Assembly (NCBI GenBank): GCA_944322005.1
Contig: CALUNL010000005.1
Span: 1 to 64,000 of the forward strand
Length of the DNA stretch: 64,000 bases
Origin: an uncultured Alistipes sp.
GTDB taxonomy: Bacteria; Bacteroidota; Bacteroidia; Bacteroidales; Rikenellaceae
Direction: 5' to 3'
Below, piece by piece: positions 2,899-35,716 of the stretch (position 1 is the stretch's first letter; each line of letters begins with the position of its first letter). Below the pieces are notes generated by a model. The model saw only the letters and a program-made list of their open reading frames with translations, searched no databases and was not told where the DNA came from. The translations under genes and the position numbers were made by a program.

Positions 2899-3750
2899 AT
2901 GTTAAAGGACGAGAAACAACAGATTGCAGCGCGGTTGAAAGACTACTGCGCACAGAAAGGCAGCCAGAACAAGGCCGCCAACAGTATGACAGGCGTGAGC
3001 AGCGCGACGGTGAGCAAGGTGCTTTCGGGCGACTGGGACACGATAAGCGACGAGATGTGGCGCACGATAGCCTCGCAGACAGGCCACGAGCGCAAGGGGT
3101 GGAACATCGCCCCGACACAGGCGTATAAGCGCATGACATTCCTGCTCACCAACGCGCAGCGCGAGAGCCTTGTGCTTGCCGTCACGGGCGATGCAGGGTG
3201 CGGCAAGACGGAGGCCATAAAGAACTATGCCGCCGGAGGACGGCACGTTTACCACCTGTGCTGCTCGGAGTACTGGAACAGGCGCACTTTCATGGGCAAG
3301 TTGCTCCGCTGTATGGGCATCGACTTCACGGGGTGCACCGTGTCGGACATGATGGACGACATCATCGACACGCTCAAACGCACGGACAGCCCGTTGGTGG
3401 TGCTTGACGAGGCCGACAAGCTGAGCGACCAAGTGCTCTACTTCTTCATCAGCCTTTACAATCAGTTGGAGGGACACTGCGGCATTATGCTCTGCGCCAC
3501 CGACTTCTTGGAGAAGCGCATCAAGAAAGGGCTGCGCACCAAGCGCAAGGGGTACGAGGAGATTTACAGCCGCATGGGGCGCAAGTTCGTGAAGCTGCAA
3601 GTCATCAACGGCGAGGACATTGCCGCCGTATGCGCTGCCAACGGCGTTACAGACCCCAAGGCGGTAAGAACTATAATAGACGATTGCGAATGCGACCTGC
3701 GCCGCGTAAAACGCGCCGTGTGGGCCAAAAATATGGAGGACGCGCAATGA
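2899..3750 (+). CDS. AAA+ ATPase, MuB-like transposition protein
   Basis: This 283-residue protein has an N-terminal lambda-repressor-type HTH (about 5-60, including VSSATVSKVLSGDW) and then an AAA+ core. Walker A is GDAGCGKT (97-104) and Walker B is LVVLDEAD (166-173). This N-terminal HTH plus ATPase arrangement is that of MuB, which coats target DNA, activates the transposase and gives target immunity. It lies in the transposase operon. The stop codon overlaps the start of the next small gene (ATGA at 3747-3750), which indicates translational coupling. Confidence 0.93.
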   Translation: MLKDEKQQIAARLKDYCAQKGSQNKAANSMTGVSSATVSKVLSGDWDTISDEMWRTIASQTGHERKGWNIAPTQAYKRMTFLLTNAQRESLVLAVTGDAGCGKTEAIKNYAAGGRHVYHLCCSEYWNRRTFMGKLLRCMGIDFTGCTVSDMMDDIIDTLKRTDSPLVVLDEADKLSDQVLYFFISLYNQLEGHCGIMLCATDFLEKRIKKGLRTKRKGYEEIYSRMGRKFVKLQVINGEDIAAVCAANGVTDPKAVRTIIDDCECDLRRVKRAVWAKNMEDAQ

Positions 3751-24742: not shown

Positions 24743-25186
24743 ATGGAACTGACGGTGCGTGACAGGCAGAGCCTGTGGGACATAGCGGTGCAATACCTTG
24801 GCGGCGTGGAGGGTGTTTTCCTGCTTGCCGCCCGGAACGGCATAGAGGTCACGAGCCGCCTGAAAGACGGCCAGCGGCTGGAATGGGAAAATGATGATGT
24901 CATATCCCCCTCCATACAGTCGGCCTGTACCGTCAAGGGGATAATCCCCGCCACCGACATCGACGAACAGGACTATAAGGAACTGCTTGCGGCGACTTCG
25001 ACCAAGGCGGCCACAGCCATTGCGGCGGTCAAGGAACAGCCGGAACAGGCGGAAGAGGACACCATCGTGATAGACAAGATAACGGAAGTCATCAAAGACC
25101 TGCAAGAGGGCAAGCCGGTGGAAAGCGATGGCGGTCAGGCGTTGACCCGGATATTTGAAGATGAATTTGACACTGTATTCGCATAA
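24743..25186 (+). CDS. LysM-like baseplate or tail protein
   Basis: The first 55 residues of this 147-residue protein look like a LysM domain (TVRDRQSLWDIAVQYLGGVE then LKDGQRLEWEND). An Ala/Glu-rich helical half follows, ending in an acidic tail. LysM modules in Mu-like and other phage baseplates often link hub to wedge rather than bind peptidoglycan. It is part of the baseplate operon (1-bp gaps on both sides). Confidence 0.7.
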   Translation: MELTVRDRQSLWDIAVQYLGGVEGVFLLAARNGIEVTSRLKDGQRLEWENDDVISPSIQSACTVKGIIPATDIDEQDYKELLAATSTKAATAIAAVKEQPEQAEEDTIVIDKITEVIKDLQEGKPVESDGGQALTRIFEDEFDTVFA

Positions 25187-25836
25187 TGGAATTGACAGAG
25201 AACAAACTTGCGGAGCTTGACACCGCAGCGTTGACAAAGAAAGCGCAGGCCATCCGCGACGCGGTGATGGCCAAGAGTGTTACGGCGGAACAGGTGGGCA
25301 GCCTGTTCGTGGACTTGATAGGAGCCTGCGGCAATGTGCGCGATGCCCTTGCCCTGTTCCTCGACACCAATGTGCCGGAAATCACGGCGGACATCGACAG
25401 CCGTCTGGCCGGTGCCGATGCGGCCACGCTTGCCGCCACTGCGGCAGCACAAAAGGCCGAGGCGACCCGCGCCCTCGTTGAGGAACTCGTGGGCAAGCTG
25501 AGCAGCCAGAACCTGAGCAAGCCCGTGCGCCTCGAAGTGAAGGCACCGGGCGAGGTGACGGTATGCAACATGCGGCAGCCGCGCATAGAGGCTCAGACCC
25601 TGCCCAAGTTCGGGCTTGGCGGGGTGCTGTTCATCAGCGACAACAAAGCCCTTGAAATCACGCCCGACGGCAAGATAACGCCGGTGGCCGAGGGCATCGG
25701 CAAAGTGACCGTGGTGGCCACCGGCAACACTGAACTGTACGAGCAGATACAAATAGCCGTCGTTCCGCCCCGTGTCCGCCTGTCCTCCGACGGCGGCATA
25801 CGGCTCGACGGCAGCGGCAACATAAGGCTGACATGA
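25186..25836 (+). CDS. phage structural protein with Big2-like C-terminal domain
   Basis: This 216-residue protein has a helical, coiled N-terminal half (LAATAAAQKAEATRALVEEL) and a C-terminal Big2-like immunoglobulin fold (ALEITPDGKITPVAEGIGKV), ending GGIRLDGSGNIRLT. The same C-terminal ending, with divergence, occurs in the next protein, so the two share a module, likely an attachment point for the fibre. No enzymatic motif is seen. Confidence 0.65.
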   Translation: MELTENKLAELDTAALTKKAQAIRDAVMAKSVTAEQVGSLFVDLIGACGNVRDALALFLDTNVPEITADIDSRLAGADAATLAATAAAQKAEATRALVEELVGKLSSQNLSKPVRLEVKAPGEVTVCNMRQPRIEAQTLPKFGLGGVLFISDNKALEITPDGKITPVAEGIGKVTVVATGNTELYEQIQIAVVPPRVRLSSDGGIRLDGSGNIRLT

Positions 25837-26981
25837 TGGAAAAGACAAGACACATAAACAGCAAGTCGGACTTCGTGCTGCGCGAGCGTTTCCGTGACGC
25901 GGACGGCAACACGGTGGCATTGCCCGATGTGGACTTTACCCTGCGCTACTGGGTGAAAACGGGTCGCATATACGAGGCATCGCGCAAGGGCGGCACATAC
26001 ACCAACTGCGTGGCCGACGGCGATGCAGTGCTGGTGATGTTCAAAGACCACCGGCTCGGTGAGGGTACGCTTAAACACGAACTGCATCTTCAATTAGACA
26101 ATGCCCTTTTTGACGACGGAGTGCAGAACGTGTATTATCCCGACTGCCTGAACATAGAACTGTGGCAATGGAGCGGCGACACCGAGGGCGTGGTGGAGAG
26201 CGACCTGATGGCCGCCTACACGAGGGGCAAGGCGTTCACATGGGAGGATTTCACCCCGGAGCAGCTTGCCGAACTGAAAGGAGAAAAGGGCGACCCTTTC
26301 ACATGGGAGGACTTCACCGCCGCGCAGATAGAGGTGCTGAAGAAACCGGCCATCGATGCGGCGGCCACGGCTACCGCTGCGGCCAAGAAAGCGGAAACGG
26401 CGGCTGACAATGCCGAAAAACAGGCAAAGGAGCTGAAAACGGCGAGCGATGATGCCATCGGCAAATGCGGCACTGCCACAAAAGAAGCGCAGGATGCAGC
26501 CGCGCAAGTGAAGAAAGCCGGGGAAACCGCCGTGAGTGCCTGCAACGGGGCGACAGCCGGGGCGCAACAGGCGACTGCGGACGCACAGGCAGCCACGGCA
26601 CAGGCCGAACAGACCCGCCAGAAGCTGGAAGAGATGACCGCACAGGTAGAGGCGGCAGCCTCGAACATACCAACCGGGTTGCGTGTGGACTGCCCGGAAG
26701 AAGTCACGCTTGGCAACACGGTGGCACAATACGTCACCGCCAAGGTCAAGCCCGACTATGCGCAGCAGAACGTCCTCTACCTCTCGGACGGTGCGGCCTG
26801 CGACGTGGAGCCTGACGGCAGGATTGTCGCCAGACGGGCAGGAACAAGCCGGGTGCATGTGATACCGACGGCGGGCGTGAGGTATTACAAGACCGTCGGC
26901 ATCGCCGTGGTGCCTCCACGCATGAGGATGGCGGGGAACGCCCTGCGGCTTGACAAGGAAGGAAACATTCGTTTAACTTAA
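25833..26981 (+). CDS. tail fibre / baseplate protein with long coiled coil
   Basis: This 382-residue protein has a beta-rich N-terminus, two copies of an FTWEDFT motif (AFTWEDFTPEQLAELKGEKG and PFTWEDFTAAQIEVLKK), a long Ala/Lys/Glu/Thr coiled coil (about 175-275) and a C-terminal Big2-like domain ending LRLDKEGNIRLT. FTWEDFT-type repeats with coiled coils are typical of Bacteroidales phage fibre shafts. It links the wedge to the DGR-diversified tip protein encoded next. Confidence 0.7.
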   Translation: MMEKTRHINSKSDFVLRERFRDADGNTVALPDVDFTLRYWVKTGRIYEASRKGGTYTNCVADGDAVLVMFKDHRLGEGTLKHELHLQLDNALFDDGVQNVYYPDCLNIELWQWSGDTEGVVESDLMAAYTRGKAFTWEDFTPEQLAELKGEKGDPFTWEDFTAAQIEVLKKPAIDAAATATAAAKKAETAADNAEKQAKELKTASDDAIGKCGTATKEAQDAAAQVKKAGETAVSACNGATAGAQQATADAQAATAQAEQTRQKLEEMTAQVEAAASNIPTGLRVDCPEEVTLGNTVAQYVTAKVKPDYAQQNVLYLSDGAACDVEPDGRIVARRAGTSRVHVIPTAGVRYYKTVGIAVVPPRMRMAGNALRLDKEGNIRLT

Positions 26982-26994
26982 TAACATCAAGACA

Positions 26995-28497
26995 ATGGCA
27001 TTAACAACAGAACAGGAACAGAAAATCACCGAGCTGCTCGCCGCATTCGAGAACGGCAAGCGCATCAGCGACCTGTCCGACGCGCAAGGCGCGGTGGGCG
27101 ACATGCATATTGAGGTGATGGACGAAAGCGGTGAAACCCGGAAGATGATGCTGGGCGAGGCCGTGGAAACGGCGAGCAACCCCATTGCCGGTCGTTATTG
27201 GAACGAGGCGAACAGCACGCCGACGGCAGCCGGTTATTACGGCAGCTTGCAGGCGTTGCGTGACCTGCCGAAGAAGCTCGGCCTTGGCCGTTACCTCGTG
27301 ACCGACGACCGCAAGCGGCGGAAGCTCGACCCGGTTGACAGCACGAAGTTCGAGGACGGCAGCCCGGCAGCCTTGGACGGCAGCATGGGGCAGTGCATGT
27401 GGTGTTGGAACGCCCACTACTTCACGACATGGAAAGAGGGGAACAACACCATCCTTGCCGTGACCTTCGCCCCGATAGCGGGCAAACCGAGCATTTATGT
27501 ACCGGCAGGCGGTATCAGTTGGATGGATGCCGCAGTGATGGACAGGACGAACACAAAACTCTGTTCGGTCATCAGCGATGCGGAACAGTACCGTGGCGGC
27601 AACGGCACCGCGCTTACCGCAGGGAACTACTCGAAAGCTCCGGCAGCGGATGCCCCGCAGCTCACTATGCTGGGAATGCCCGCGACAAGCATCAGCACCA
27701 CCAACTTCGGAGCATACGCCCGGAAACGCGGCGAGGGCTGGGAAGCCAACTGGTTTGTAGCCCGTGCGGTGGTGGAGTACTTGTTTGAAATTATCATGGG
27801 TACGCGCAACTCGCAGGCGGCATTCAACGGCGAGCTTGACGAGAACGGGCTGTATCATGGTGGTTTCGGCACAGGCGTGACGAACATGCCGGACTGGAGC
27901 AACTACAACGGAGCGTACCCGGTAATCCCGACAAGCGTGGGGCTTGAAGCCGGAGACGGCGTGTGCCTTGTGGACTACTCCCTGCCGGCGACCGCCCCGG
28001 CGGAAGGCTCGGAGGAGGAGCAGGCGGAGAGTTACCACACTTTCCAAGTGCCGGTGTTCTTCGGGCTTGTCAATGCCGGTTTCGGCAGCCTGTGGAGATG
28101 GGTGCGCGGTTTGACCATTTCGCAGACCGCCGGTGAGAAGATGGAGGTGTATGTCGCCCCGTCGATGTATGCCGACTTCACGCCCGACACGGTGGAAGGC
28201 AAGGTGAAAGTGTGCGACTGCCCGCTGACACAGTCGTATATCAAGAAGAAGTCATATAACGGGCTGTGCTGTATGCCTACCGAAGTTGGCGGCTCGGCAT
28301 CGACCTACTTCTGTGACTACTTCTATAACAATGCGGCGTCAGCCACAGGTTTCCGTGTGCGGGCTGCCGGTGGTAGCGCGGACGGTGGCACGGATGCAGG
28401 TGCTTCTTACACGAGTGCGTACAGCGCGGCTTCGACTGCGTATTCGAGCTACTCGTCGCCCCTCTGCTTTTTCACGGAAGACCCGGAAATCGAATAA
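26995..28497 (+). CDS. DGR-diversified tail tip / receptor-binding protein
   Basis: In this 500-residue protein the C-terminal 40 residues form the variable repeat. GFRVRAAGG opens the typical C-type-lectin/FGE-fold end of DGR targets, and the segment to residue 492 contains the diversified positions. Variable residues are S461, D463, G464, D467, S474, Y476, S477, A478, Y483, S485 and C491. The rest is beta-rich and Trp/Gly-rich, consistent with a fibre head. Changes here should alter host receptor choice. A terminator-like hairpin region and the TR follow. Confidence 0.9.
   Translation: MALTTEQEQKITELLAAFENGKRISDLSDAQGAVGDMHIEVMDESGETRKMMLGEAVETASNPIAGRYWNEANSTPTAAGYYGSLQALRDLPKKLGLGRYLVTDDRKRRKLDPVDSTKFEDGSPAALDGSMGQCMWCWNAHYFTTWKEGNNTILAVTFAPIAGKPSIYVPAGGISWMDAAVMDRTNTKLCSVISDAEQYRGGNGTALTAGNYSKAPAADAPQLTMLGMPATSISTTNFGAYARKRGEGWEANWFVARAVVEYLFEIIMGTRNSQAAFNGELDENGLYHGGFGTGVTNMPDWSNYNGAYPVIPTSVGLEAGDGVCLVDYSLPATAPAEGSEEEQAESYHTFQVPVFFGLVNAGFGSLWRWVRGLTISQTAGEKMEVYVAPSMYADFTPDTVEGKVKVCDCPLTQSYIKKKSYNGLCCMPTEVGGSASTYFCDYFYNNAASATGFRVRAAGGSADGGTDAGASYTSAYSAASTAYSSYSSPLCFFTEDPEIE
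28349..28470 (+). repeat. DGR variable repeat (VR), 122 bp
   Basis: It aligns without gaps to the TR at 28705-28826. Of 122 positions, 13 differ, and each falls on one of the 27 TR adenines; none of the 95 other positions differs. The VR lies in the last 50 codons of the fibre-tip gene. It begins at GTTTCCGTG and ends in CTTT, where similarity stops. Confidence 0.97.
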
Positions 28498-28572
28498 AAC
28501 GAAAACGGGGCGAAGCCCAAACGAAAACAATCGTTCTTTGAAATTTTGTGCTTGAAATATCGGTTGAATGTC

Positions 28573-28607
28573 ACGGCGGGAAAATAAAAATCCCGCCGTC
28601 AGGCGGG
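28573..28607 (+). terminator. overlapping alternative hairpins between VR and TR
   Basis: ACGGCGGG/CCCGCCGT (28573-28580/28592-28599) and CCCGCC/GGCGGG (28592-28597/28602-28607, loop GTCA) share the same strand and cannot form together. The second is followed by a short T run. This may end fibre-gene transcription before the TR or act as a structural element of the retroelement. Confidence 0.55.
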
Positions 28608-28648
28608 CGAATTTTGGAAGAATTTATGGAGTTATCGGCGATATTATC

Positions 28649-28656
28649 TACTTTTG
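28649..28656 (+). promoter_or_regulatory. -7 element (TACTTTTG), candidate TR promoter
   Basis: TACTTTTG matches TAnnTTTG and would start transcription about 42 nt before TR. The -33 region is poor. It lies after the hairpins that follow the fibre gene, so the template RNA and RT could be expressed independently. Confidence 0.5.
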
Positions 28657-28704
28657 TGCCGTCTTTGGTAAGACAGAGACAGGTTGCATGTCCCTCAGTG
28701 GTGA

Positions 28705-28826
28705 GTTTCCGTGTGCGGGCTGCCGGTGGTAACGCGAACAATGGCACGAATGCAGGTGCTTCTTACACGAATGCGAACAACACGGCTTCGACTGCGAATT
28801 CGAACTACTCGTCGCCCCTATACTTT
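28705..28826 (+). repeat. DGR template repeat (TR), 122 bp
   Basis: This is the invariant copy of the VR, rich in AAC/AAT codons, with a reading frame through it coding for Asn at most of the variable sites. Between TR and the reverse transcriptase start is a 153-nt non-coding spacer (28827-28979), close in length to the spacer needed for cDNA priming in the Bordetella DGR. A reading frame covers TR but has no independent evidence. Confidence 0.96.
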
Positions 28827-28979
28827 GCAGAGACGAACTAAGGCGATAAAGGGATGTGAACCTTGCCGCTTGGCAAAAGATGACCGCGACGGAAAGGGTG
28901 CCGGTAGGGCGCAAGCCTCGAAAGTTCCCGATTAAGCAAAGCAGACCCAAACCCATAGACCCCAAGACCCGAAGACCCG

Positions 28980-30323
28980 ATGAAACGGAAAGGCTTTTTG
29001 TTCGAGCAAGTATGCTCGATGGAAAACCTTTTGCTTGCCTCCTACAATGCAGGGCGCGGCAAAAGGAACCGCGAGGAGGTGAAAGAGTTCGAGGAACATT
29101 TGGAGGAAAACCTGCGGCAGTTGCAGGCGGAACTCCAGACCCGGACTTACAAGACCTCAAAATACGCCGTATTCGTCAAGTATGAACCCAAACGGCGCGA
29201 AATCTACAAGCTGCCCTACCGCGACCGAGTGGCGCAATGGGCGATAATGCAGATACTCGAACCGCTCTGGACTCCTACTTTCACCGCCGACACCTATGCC
29301 TGTATCAAGGGGCGCGGCATCCATTCCCTGTTGCGGAAATTGCGCAAAGACCTCCGGGACGACCCGGAAGGAACACGCTACTGCCTCAAACTGGATGTGC
29401 GCAAGTTCTATCCGAGCATCGACCACGACACATTGAAAATGGTCGTGCGGAAGAAAATCAAAGACCCCGACATGCTGTGGCTGCTCGACGGTATCATCGA
29501 CTCCGCCGATGGCGTACCCATCGGCAATTACATCTCCCAACATTTCGCCAACCTGTACCTGTCGGAACTTGACCACAGGCTTAAAGAGTTCGCCGGTGTG
29601 CGGTATTATTACCGCTATGCCGACGACATGGTCGTGTTGTCCGGCAGCAAGCCGTTCCTTCACGGTGTCTTGGTGTATATCAACGACTACCTGAACAACG
29701 ACCGGCTGCTCGACATGAAGCGGAACTATCAGGTGTTCCCGGTTGACAGCCGGGGCATCGACTTCGTGGGCTATGTCATATACCGTACCCACTGCCTCGC
29801 CCGCAAGCGCAACAAGAAAGCCCTGTGCCGCGAGGTGGCGAAGCTGCGCAAGGCAGGGCTGGCGAATGAGGAGATACGCCTGAAGGTGGCCTCGCGGCTC
29901 GGCTTCATGGTGCATTGCGACAGTAAACATTTAATAGATATTTTGGGCATGAAAAAATTTAGTGACATCAAACCGAAACAAGGCAAGCTGACAGGCAGCA
30001 AGTACCACATCGACACCATCCTTAACAGGGAAATCCATCTGACGGCGTATGAGATTGCGCAGTCGAAGTATGACGGCGAGATGCTGACGCTTCAATATGA
30101 GATTTACGAGCCGCTGACGGACGAGCAGGGCACGGTGGTGGATGACGACGGCCAGCCGGTATATGGCTGGGTCAAGCATATCACCTTCACCGGGTCGAAA
30201 GCCCTGATGCGGCAGTTGGACGGAGTGGAACTTACGGAGCCTGTTGCCGCCAAGATTATCAAACAATCCATCGGGAACGACGGCAAGCGGTGCTTTTACA
30301 GCATAGTCGATCCCGACCAATGA
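28980..30323 (+). CDS. DGR reverse transcriptase with C-terminal extension
   Basis: In this 447-residue protein the RT motifs are in order: LKLDVRKFYPSID (137-149), the DGR-type motif VPIGNYISQHFANLYL (179-194), and YADD (213-216). It copies TR RNA with adenine-specific errors for transfer to VR. It is about 100 residues longer than usual DGR RTs. From about residue 330, SDIKPKQGKLTG to the end forms an extra beta-rich domain containing HITFTGSKALMRQL. No Avd-like gene is seen nearby, so the extension may substitute for an accessory function. Confidence 0.95.
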   Translation: MKRKGFLFEQVCSMENLLLASYNAGRGKRNREEVKEFEEHLEENLRQLQAELQTRTYKTSKYAVFVKYEPKRREIYKLPYRDRVAQWAIMQILEPLWTPTFTADTYACIKGRGIHSLLRKLRKDLRDDPEGTRYCLKLDVRKFYPSIDHDTLKMVVRKKIKDPDMLWLLDGIIDSADGVPIGNYISQHFANLYLSELDHRLKEFAGVRYYYRYADDMVVLSGSKPFLHGVLVYINDYLNNDRLLDMKRNYQVFPVDSRGIDFVGYVIYRTHCLARKRNKKALCREVAKLRKAGLANEEIRLKVASRLGFMVHCDSKHLIDILGMKKFSDIKPKQGKLTGSKYHIDTILNREIHLTAYEIAQSKYDGEMLTLQYEIYEPLTDEQGTVVDDDGQPVYGWVKHITFTGSKALMRQLDGVELTEPVAAKIIKQSIGNDGKRCFYSIVDPDQ

Positions 30324-34254: not shown

Positions 34255-34893
34255 ATGAACAAGTATTTTCAACTGCTGGATAAGATACTTGTATCCGGCA
34301 AAACACAAGACAACAAGAAAGGCAGGATAAGATACCTGCTGAATGAACACCTGACACTGACCCCGTCCGACCTGCTCGACATTTTCGAGAGCCGTGACAT
34401 TGCCCGGAAAAAGCTGCGCCGCGAGTTGCAACTGTTTATGCAAGGCGAACGCAGTGTGGCGAAGTATGACGAGGCCGGCATAACTTGGTGGGATTATTGC
34501 GGTCAGACACTCATCAACAGTTATCCCACCTATATGGAAAAGTTGCCACCACTTATCGCGCAAATCAACAAGGAAAAACGCAGCAGCAAGAATTATGTGC
34601 TGTTCTTGGGCGCGACAGGCGCGGAAACAAACCAAGCCCCTTGCCTTAGCCTTGTGCAGTTCCAGATAGACGGAGGCGAACTGGTGGTGACAGCTTACCA
34701 GCGCAGCTCCGATGCCAACCTCGGACTGCCGTCCGACATTTACCACCTGTATTTGATGTCGCGGCAGATTGACCTGCCTTTGAAGTCCATATCGATAGAC
34801 TTTGGCAACGTGCACATCTACGAAACCAACGAGGAGAACACACGCCGTCTGCTCGCGGGCGAAACGGCGGTAAATTTCGTGCTGAATGTGTGA
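34255..34893 (+). CDS. thymidylate-synthase-fold protein, probable dCMP (hydroxy)methylase
   Basis: In this 212-residue relative of ThyA the ThyA landmarks are visible: E57 in RRELQLFMQG, WW near 78-79, the catalytic C130 in APCLSLVQF, R150 and D153 in YQRSSDANLG, and H187/Y189 in GNVHIY. Two departures matter. The residue equal to ThyA N177 is D161 (in PSDI), the change that turns T4 gp42 and TS mutants towards dCMP, and the His after the catalytic Cys is Leu131. It probably makes a modified pyrimidine nucleotide for phage DNA. It sits with a DNA methylase at the Mu mom position. Confidence 0.8.
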   Translation: MNKYFQLLDKILVSGKTQDNKKGRIRYLLNEHLTLTPSDLLDIFESRDIARKKLRRELQLFMQGERSVAKYDEAGITWWDYCGQTLINSYPTYMEKLPPLIAQINKEKRSSKNYVLFLGATGAETNQAPCLSLVQFQIDGGELVVTAYQRSSDANLGLPSDIYHLYLMSRQIDLPLKSISIDFGNVHIYETNEENTRRLLAGETAVNFVLNV

Positions 34894-35716
34894 GCGGACA
34901 TATTCATCTGCTCCATTGCCGTTCATGGGGCAGAAAAGGCGTTTTGTGCGGGATTTCAAGGAGGTGCTGAAACGGTTTGACGATGTTGACACGATTGTTG
35001 ACCTGTTCGGCGGAAGCGGCTTGCTTGCCCATGTCGCAAAACGGGAATGCCCGGAGAAAAGGGTCGTTTATAACGATTTTGACGGTTTTTGCGACAGGCT
35101 GGCAAATGTGTCCGTGACCAACGAGATATTGCGCCGTTTGCGGCCCATTATAACCGAAGTGCCTCCAAACAAACGTGTGCCGCGAGAACAGCAAGACAAG
35201 GTGCTGGCAATAATAGCAGAATATGAGGAGAAAGGCTGTTATGTCGATTATATCACGCTGAGCGCATCAATACTTTTCAGTGGCAAATGGGCCAAGACAT
35301 ATCAGGAACTGACGAAGCAGACGATGTATAATGTCATTAAACAGTCGGATTACAATGTCGAAGGCTATTTGGACGGTTTGGAAATCGTCCACGCTGATTA
35401 CAGGGAAGTCTTTGCCGCGTTTCCTGACAAGCGAAAGACGTTGTTTCTTATCGACCCACCTTATTTGTCAACAGAAGTCGGAACGTATGAATGTTATTGG
35501 AAATTGGGCGATTATTTGGACGTGCTGAAACTACTTGTATCGACACGTTACATTTATTTCACGAGCAACAAGTCGCAAATCGTAGAGCTTTGTTGGTGGT
35601 TGAACGATAATGCAGCTTCGCTTGGAAATCCATTTAAGGACGCGGAAACACATAATCGTTACAGCAATCTGAATTACCAAGCAGGTTTCACGGACATAAT
35701 GCTCGTGAAAGGATAG
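34886..35716 (+). CDS. D12-class N6-adenine DNA methyltransferase (Dam-like)
   Basis: In this 276-residue protein the D12 class signs are PFMGQKRRF (12-20), DLFGGSG (39-45) for AdoMet binding and DPPY (190-193) for catalysis. Its start overlaps the end of the TS-fold gene by 8 bp, so they are translated together. It likely protects phage DNA from host restriction. The second half (35200-35716) is more AT-rich than the rest of the phage, which suggests a separate origin. A 13-bp-stem terminator follows. Confidence 0.93.
   Translation: MCERTYSSAPLPFMGQKRRFVRDFKEVLKRFDDVDTIVDLFGGSGLLAHVAKRECPEKRVVYNDFDGFCDRLANVSVTNEILRRLRPIITEVPPNKRVPREQQDKVLAIIAEYEEKGCYVDYITLSASILFSGKWAKTYQELTKQTMYNVIKQSDYNVEGYLDGLEIVHADYREVFAAFPDKRKTLFLIDPPYLSTEVGTYECYWKLGDYLDVLKLLVSTRYIYFTSNKSQIVELCWWLNDNAASLGNPFKDAETHNRYSNLNYQAGFTDIMLVKG

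Follow-up and report, generated by a model that had tools for sequence, protein, structure and literature searches.

Here, we describe a diversity-generating retroelement (DGR) in the first 64,000 nucleotides of contig CALUNL010000005.1 (hereafter the window, meaning this whole stretch), which belongs to a 1.84 Mb assembly of seven contigs from an uncultured Alistipes sp. (GCA_944322005.1). The element comprises a target gene that carries the variable repeat (VR) in frame at its 3′ end, a hairpin, the template repeat (TR) and a gene for a DGR-type reverse transcriptase (RT), and with these four components it is a DGR. An initial annotation of the window had called this system complete. Indeed, TR, VR, RT and hairpin are all in place, but no gene for the accessory protein Avd was found and the RT bears an extra C-terminal domain. 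The features of the locus are collected in Table 1.

Table 1. Features of the DGR and of the genes downstream of it, in window positions.
Feature	Positions	Strand	Basis or remark
Target gene, 500 aa, tail protein	26995..28497	+	open reading frame; PHROG 5302 (tail protein), E 1.1e-65
VR	28349..28470	+	13 differences from TR, every one at a TR adenine
IMH-like 3′ end of VR	28452..28470 (limits approximate)	+	CTCTGC at 28462-28467, CTATAC in TR
Hairpin GGGC-GAA-GCCC	28508..28518	+	just 3′ of the target stop codon
TR	28705..28826	+	122-nt partner of VR
DGR-type RT fused to predicted OB domain, 447 aa	28980..30323	+	RVT_1; PDB 8ub7_A match
DGR SQ motif IGNYISQ, RT residues 181-187	29520..29540	+	
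Predicted SSB/PriB-like OB domain, RT residues 324-447	29949..30320	+	AlphaFold2, PDB neighbours, homologous stand-alone open reading frames
Thymidylate synthase	34255-34890		downstream of DGR
D12 methyltransferase	34886-35713		downstream of DGR; Pfam scan

VR and TR align without gaps over 122 nt with 13 mismatches. All of them fall on TR adenines, so that 13 of 27 adenines are altered against none of the 95 other sites, and the probability that 13 random sites would land on A every time is 1.8e-10. The pair reported by the initial annotation was reproduced exactly by realignment and was recovered by a second, independent repeat search; a third copy of the repeat was found neither in the window nor in the rest of the genome. 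From TR to VR, the substitutions are A to G (10), A to T (2) and A to C (1), and they alter 12 codons, nine of which read AAC or AAT in TR, as the predominance of these codons noted earlier would have it. The claim of purely adenine-directed change also stands, with one refinement that concerns positions 28464 and 28466, where CTATAC in TR has become CTCTGC in VR. This same contrast recurs in all eight relatives inspected, and also in loci L004 and L010, and the two changes look like a fixed difference between the initiation of mutagenic homing element (IMH) and its TR counterpart (IMH*), the role of the IMH at the VR 3′ end being taken from the DGR literature (PMC4372165). Read as a fixed VR/TR signature, they leave 11 of the 13 differences attributable to mutagenesis.

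With regard to the C-type lectin fold that serves as a mark of DGR targets, the target protein matched no Pfam family and, by sequence, no PDB entry below E 0.06. Its PHROG match makes it a tail protein, and the fibre-tip role given to it in the initial annotation is a putative one. The hairpin behind VR is found in the window and in nine of ten relatives (five of those near-identical), and none of 1000 mononucleotide shuffles produced a GC-only stem of at least 4 bp with a G..A loop, a criterion that was set after seeing the hairpin. The locus thus shows the DGR arrangement of a VR at the 3′ end of the target, an IMH/IMH* pair and a hairpin, and by analogy with Bordetella phage BPP-1 the last two would work as cis elements. 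An open reading frame (ORF) of 97 aa that spans TR (28548-28838) is without Pfam match and was set aside. Two adjacent genes beside the target (25186-25836 and 25833-26981) both match PHROG 20680 and are paralogous tail-associated genes; the second contains a 54-nt repeat (26225 and 26288).

It had been suggested that VR should vary among carriers of this prophage at TR adenines only, with a constant TR. This is what we observed among relatives of the element rather than among copies of this prophage. The RTs of five relatives (L004, L010, L011, L013 and L014) are near-identical and their VRs differ; L004, L010, L012, L013, L014 and L015 share one and the same TR core, from which that of L011 departs by a single base. 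Compared with their own TRs, the five VRs are altered at 87 of 144 adenines, 10 of these 87 being the two fixed 3′ sites, and at none of 464 other sites. Three further loci were left out of this comparison: L012, which has no separate VR, L015, whose VR lies beyond the contig start, and L016, taken as the genome of L004. In a wider scan of 152 loci, TR/VR pairs with changes at A only were found in 113 loci plus four on the minus strand, some contigs being counted twice. The control matches for other bases in the same scan were few (C 1, G 10, T 5); four of the T matches are the minus-strand loci, and the remaining 12 share the offset of the true pair of the locus, mirrored. One locus (L216) has a weaker pair, with 12 A and two other changes over 60 nt. 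In L012 (approximately 3007-3130), no separate VR is present and the VR flank passes straight into a TR-like copy, owing either to deletion between VR and TR or to a collapse in the assembly.

These data bear on whether the element is a decaying DGR whose A-only differences are old. Two of the related VRs (L010 and L011) have one single-base deletion each, both at a TR adenine, that breaks the target frame, and for the window itself, where the evidence is a single copy, the recent activity stated in the initial annotation is putative. Against decay, nothing is damaged in the RT, the TR, the target frame, the hairpin or the 3′ signature, and there is no non-A drift in 95 sites, so that we regard this explanation as quite unlikely. 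Faulty action of the DGR itself may have produced the two deletions.

As had been proposed, a reverse transcriptase with DGR-type motifs lies downstream of the repeats. Residues 2-320 match PDB 8ub7_A (E 2.5e-56), which we take to be the BPP-1 RT, and the protein is 36.7% identical to BPP-1 brt. Its SQ motif, which conforms to the (I/V/L)GxxxSQ definition given in PMC3521204, is invariant in the 13 RTs compared; the enzyme thus combines the DGR motif with kinship to known DGR RTs. PADLOC assigned RT families to the RT and none to its C-terminal domain. A model of the entire RT computed by AlphaFold2 with 13 close sequences was poor (pLDDT 48.1) and was not used.

Modelled separately, the C-terminal domain reached a pLDDT of 87.4, with elements in the order b-b-b-a-b-b, and the structural neighbours of the model in the PDB are mostly SSB and PriB proteins. 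The domain is predicted to adopt an SSB/PriB-like oligonucleotide/oligosaccharide-binding (OB) fold, putatively five-stranded. It would share with these proteins the fold and the order of its elements; it differs from them by having no detectable sequence similarity to them and by its linkage to an RT. Pfam and NCBIfam hold no family for it, and PHROG 19665, of unknown function, matches eight of 24 members of the domain family. A PDB sequence search with this family gave a single match, to a ribosomal protein (E 0.7), which was taken as chance. Most relatives encode the domain on its own, in an ORF of about 95-100 aa whose start coincides with the RT stop codon or lies close to it, and homologous stand-alone ORFs adjoin other DGR RTs.

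We then consider how closely the domain is tied to DGR RTs. Three scans with the domain as sole query yielded 45 loci, 80 loci (the best of 132) and 14 loci, which correspond to at least 124 distinct viral contigs, counted by hand from the matches listed. An RT lies on the same strand in 121 of the 124 contigs listed, as judged from hidden Markov models; in the other three, the contig ends at the domain, so that an RT there would have been lost. Among the 121, the domain is fused to the RT in 18, downstream of it in 102 and upstream in a single case (L160). An in-frame stop splits the domain in one locus (L172). In whole genomes, the domain was found in 5 of 395 at class level, 5 of 395 at phylum level and 10 of 268 at family level, these samples overlapping and each including the genome of the window. 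The fetched locus contained an RT at 5/5, 5/5 and 10/11 of the respective domain places. The lone family-level exception (G173) has neither RT nor TR/VR in the 8 kb around the domain, where the gene next after the RT of the window does have a relative; it is a remnant. Conversely, of ten places with an RT in the host family, seven have the domain as a fusion or no more than 1.5 kb away. Altogether, the linkage of the domain to DGR RTs is nearly exclusive. This distribution speaks to the idea that the OB protein is a replication SSB of the phage that merely adjoins the DGR. SSBs are common in phages and the predicted fold is SSB-like, but a replication SSB would often occur away from the RT, whereas the domain is beside or fused to the RT wherever the contig is uncut, as also at the genome places counted above. 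We consider this possibility very unlikely.

The history of the fusion was examined in a tree of 50 RTs. Constraining the fused RTs to one clade was rejected (p-AU 0.004), and well-supported branches force at least two changes, their exact number being unsure since the long branches of hankyphage (L190) and L210 are placed unsurely. RTs associated with Avd cluster together (support 92/75), with archaeal virus ANMV-1 next to them. The scattering of fused RTs may reflect repeated fusion or a fusion that was later split. A further fused lineage is formed by L210-L212 (from G115, G102 and G101), in which FMDN replaces the YADD active-site motif; ahead of motif 4 the RTs of this lineage contain a long insertion, and they are fused to an OB-like domain.

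It could be argued that the element is an ordinary DGR and that its C-terminal domain is a lineage-specific RT tail that contributes nothing particular to mutagenic homing. All DGR motifs lie within the RT core, which by itself matches BPP-1 brt, and some DGR phages have neither Avd nor the domain. However, about 100 viral contigs have the domain as a conserved gene of its own next to a DGR RT, and the fused lineages do not form one clade; because of this, an irrelevant tail would not be expected to persist so widely. We therefore hold this explanation to be unlikely.

The relation of the domain to Avd was also assessed. Neither bAvd (PF22296) nor the related PF05635 has a match in the genome of the window, so that the Avd accessory gene that marks Avd-type DGRs was not found. 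As a control, PF22296 finds BPP-1 and five of 13 other DGR phages (one of the five below the curated cut-off); PF05635 gave no positive in the controls run for it and misses BPP-1. Among virus records with the domain, many of which are fragments, 45 of 46 have no bAvd match, and the single match is below the curated cut-off and adjoins another RT, which lies on the same contig some 12 kb away from the DGR of the domain. Reciprocally, the domain was found in none of the five bAvd-containing records, within the region scanned. Six of the 13 have neither, and one of the 13, Versailles, gave a doubtful domain match (E 0.013). Avd and the OB domain thus look mutually exclusive, though not exhaustive.

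Taken with the anatomy of the locus, its adenine bias and the predicted fold, the near-exclusive linkage to DGR RTs and the lack of a recognised Avd beside the domain lead us to favour, as the probable reading, a DGR that looks functional, belongs to a Mu-like Bacteroidota prophage and carries on its RT an SSB/PriB-like OB accessory in place of Avd. We infer that the domain would bind nucleic acids, replace Avd and have a role in homing. In the mechanism that we propose, the RT would copy TR RNA with errors at adenines, and the mutagenic complementary DNA (cDNA) would replace VR at the 3′ end of the tail-protein gene, the constant VR 3′ end and the hairpin behind it marking the recipient. The OB domain would hold for the RT its TR RNA, the mutagenic cDNA in single-stranded form, or both, would in this way take on the task that falls to Avd in BPP-1, and could perhaps also aid annealing of the cDNA at VR.

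On a broader scale, we give an even chance to a reading in which there are at least two mechanistic classes of DGRs, one relying on Avd, as in BPP-1, and a large OB class, with the domain separate or fused, in which the OB factor stands in for Avd and serves to carry the mutagenic cDNA or to anneal it. In this same reading, the OB class would include hankyphage and span phages of Bacteroidota as well as archaeal viruses and many viruses from the environment. PMC12135933 states that the way in which mutagenic cDNA leaves the enzyme and reaches the target gene "has not yet been elucidated". An SSB-like factor beside or fused to the RT in many DGRs is a testable candidate for this transfer step or for cDNA priming. 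It would also make it possible to separate the tasks proper to Avd from what any DGR accessory must do, and the domain provides a marker to find and classify DGRs that are now scored without an accessory gene.

Part of this may have been seen before. According to PMC10053308, Wu et al. proposed, beyond Avd, HRDC and MSL, one more protein without Pfam or CDD entry, and the domain family likewise has no Pfam entry. The stand-alone gene may thus be this unnamed fourth accessory of Wu et al. 2018, in which case only the fold, the fusion and the spread would be new; on the other hand, no paper found in our literature searches on OB or SSB proteins together with DGRs describes it in its title or abstract. 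We see this as a real possibility, though less likely than not. In the open literature searched, we found no description of an RT-OB fusion or of a link between OB proteins and DGR RTs without Avd, with the proviso that Wu et al. 2018 may already list the stand-alone gene.

Regarding the genomic setting, a Pfam scan of 36 ORFs of the window found Portal_Mu, Phage_Mu_F, Mu-like_Pro and DUF3164. The phage is therefore Mu-like, in agreement with the initial annotation. Among the relatives, two different phages of this kind (L002 and L003) occur in one metagenome-assembled genome labelled Clostridia bacterium, the other labelled relatives being Bacteroidota; this is likely a binning error.

Finally, we compared the element with known systems. 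BPP-1 (mtd, avd, TR, brt) shares with it TR/VR adenine mutagenesis of a tail protein, a related RT core and a hairpin behind VR, but has its Avd gene between VR and TR, whereas none was found in the window and the RT carries the predicted OB domain. The closest RT cores in the annotated phage collection are those of crAss-like phages (cr55_1, cr52_1 and others), with up to 51% identity; they differ in that no bAvd was found, nor any OB domain in the two of them whose regions were scanned for it (cr55_1 and cr52_1). In archaeal virus ANMV-1 and Methanosarcinales virus vir525, the RT is followed at once by a small ORF with homology to the C-terminal domain of the window RT. There, in contrast, the domain gene is separate, the hosts are archaeal and the product is annotated only as a hypothetical protein.

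A DGR in a Mu-like Bacteroidota prophage is already known from hankyphage (Bacteroides phage p00), which (PMC6199706 and PMC12135933) is likewise a Mu-like temperate phage of Bacteroidales with the order VR-TR-RT and A-directed changes. As in the window, genes for a thymidylate synthase and an N6 methyltransferase follow its DGR. The two differ in that the window RT is only 33.8% identical to that of hankyphage, whose target gene is far larger. With a near-identical genome (more than 95% nucleotide identity across hosts) taken as the mark of the hankyphage lineage, the window lies outside it, its DGR region having no megablast match to any of 50,697 phage records. The C-terminus of the 434-aa hankyphage RT matches the domain family, more weakly (E 5.2e-5 and 2.2e-5 in two scans). 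The Avd of hankyphage was picked in print by isoelectric point and size (PMC6199706); the ORF published under this name (64 aa, L190 3481-3672) has no Pfam match and the phage record has no bAvd match, and we suggest that this small ORF be re-examined. The hankyphage DGR is active in culture, as reported in PMC12135933. If the match to its RT is right, an active system of the OB class would already be at hand for experiments.

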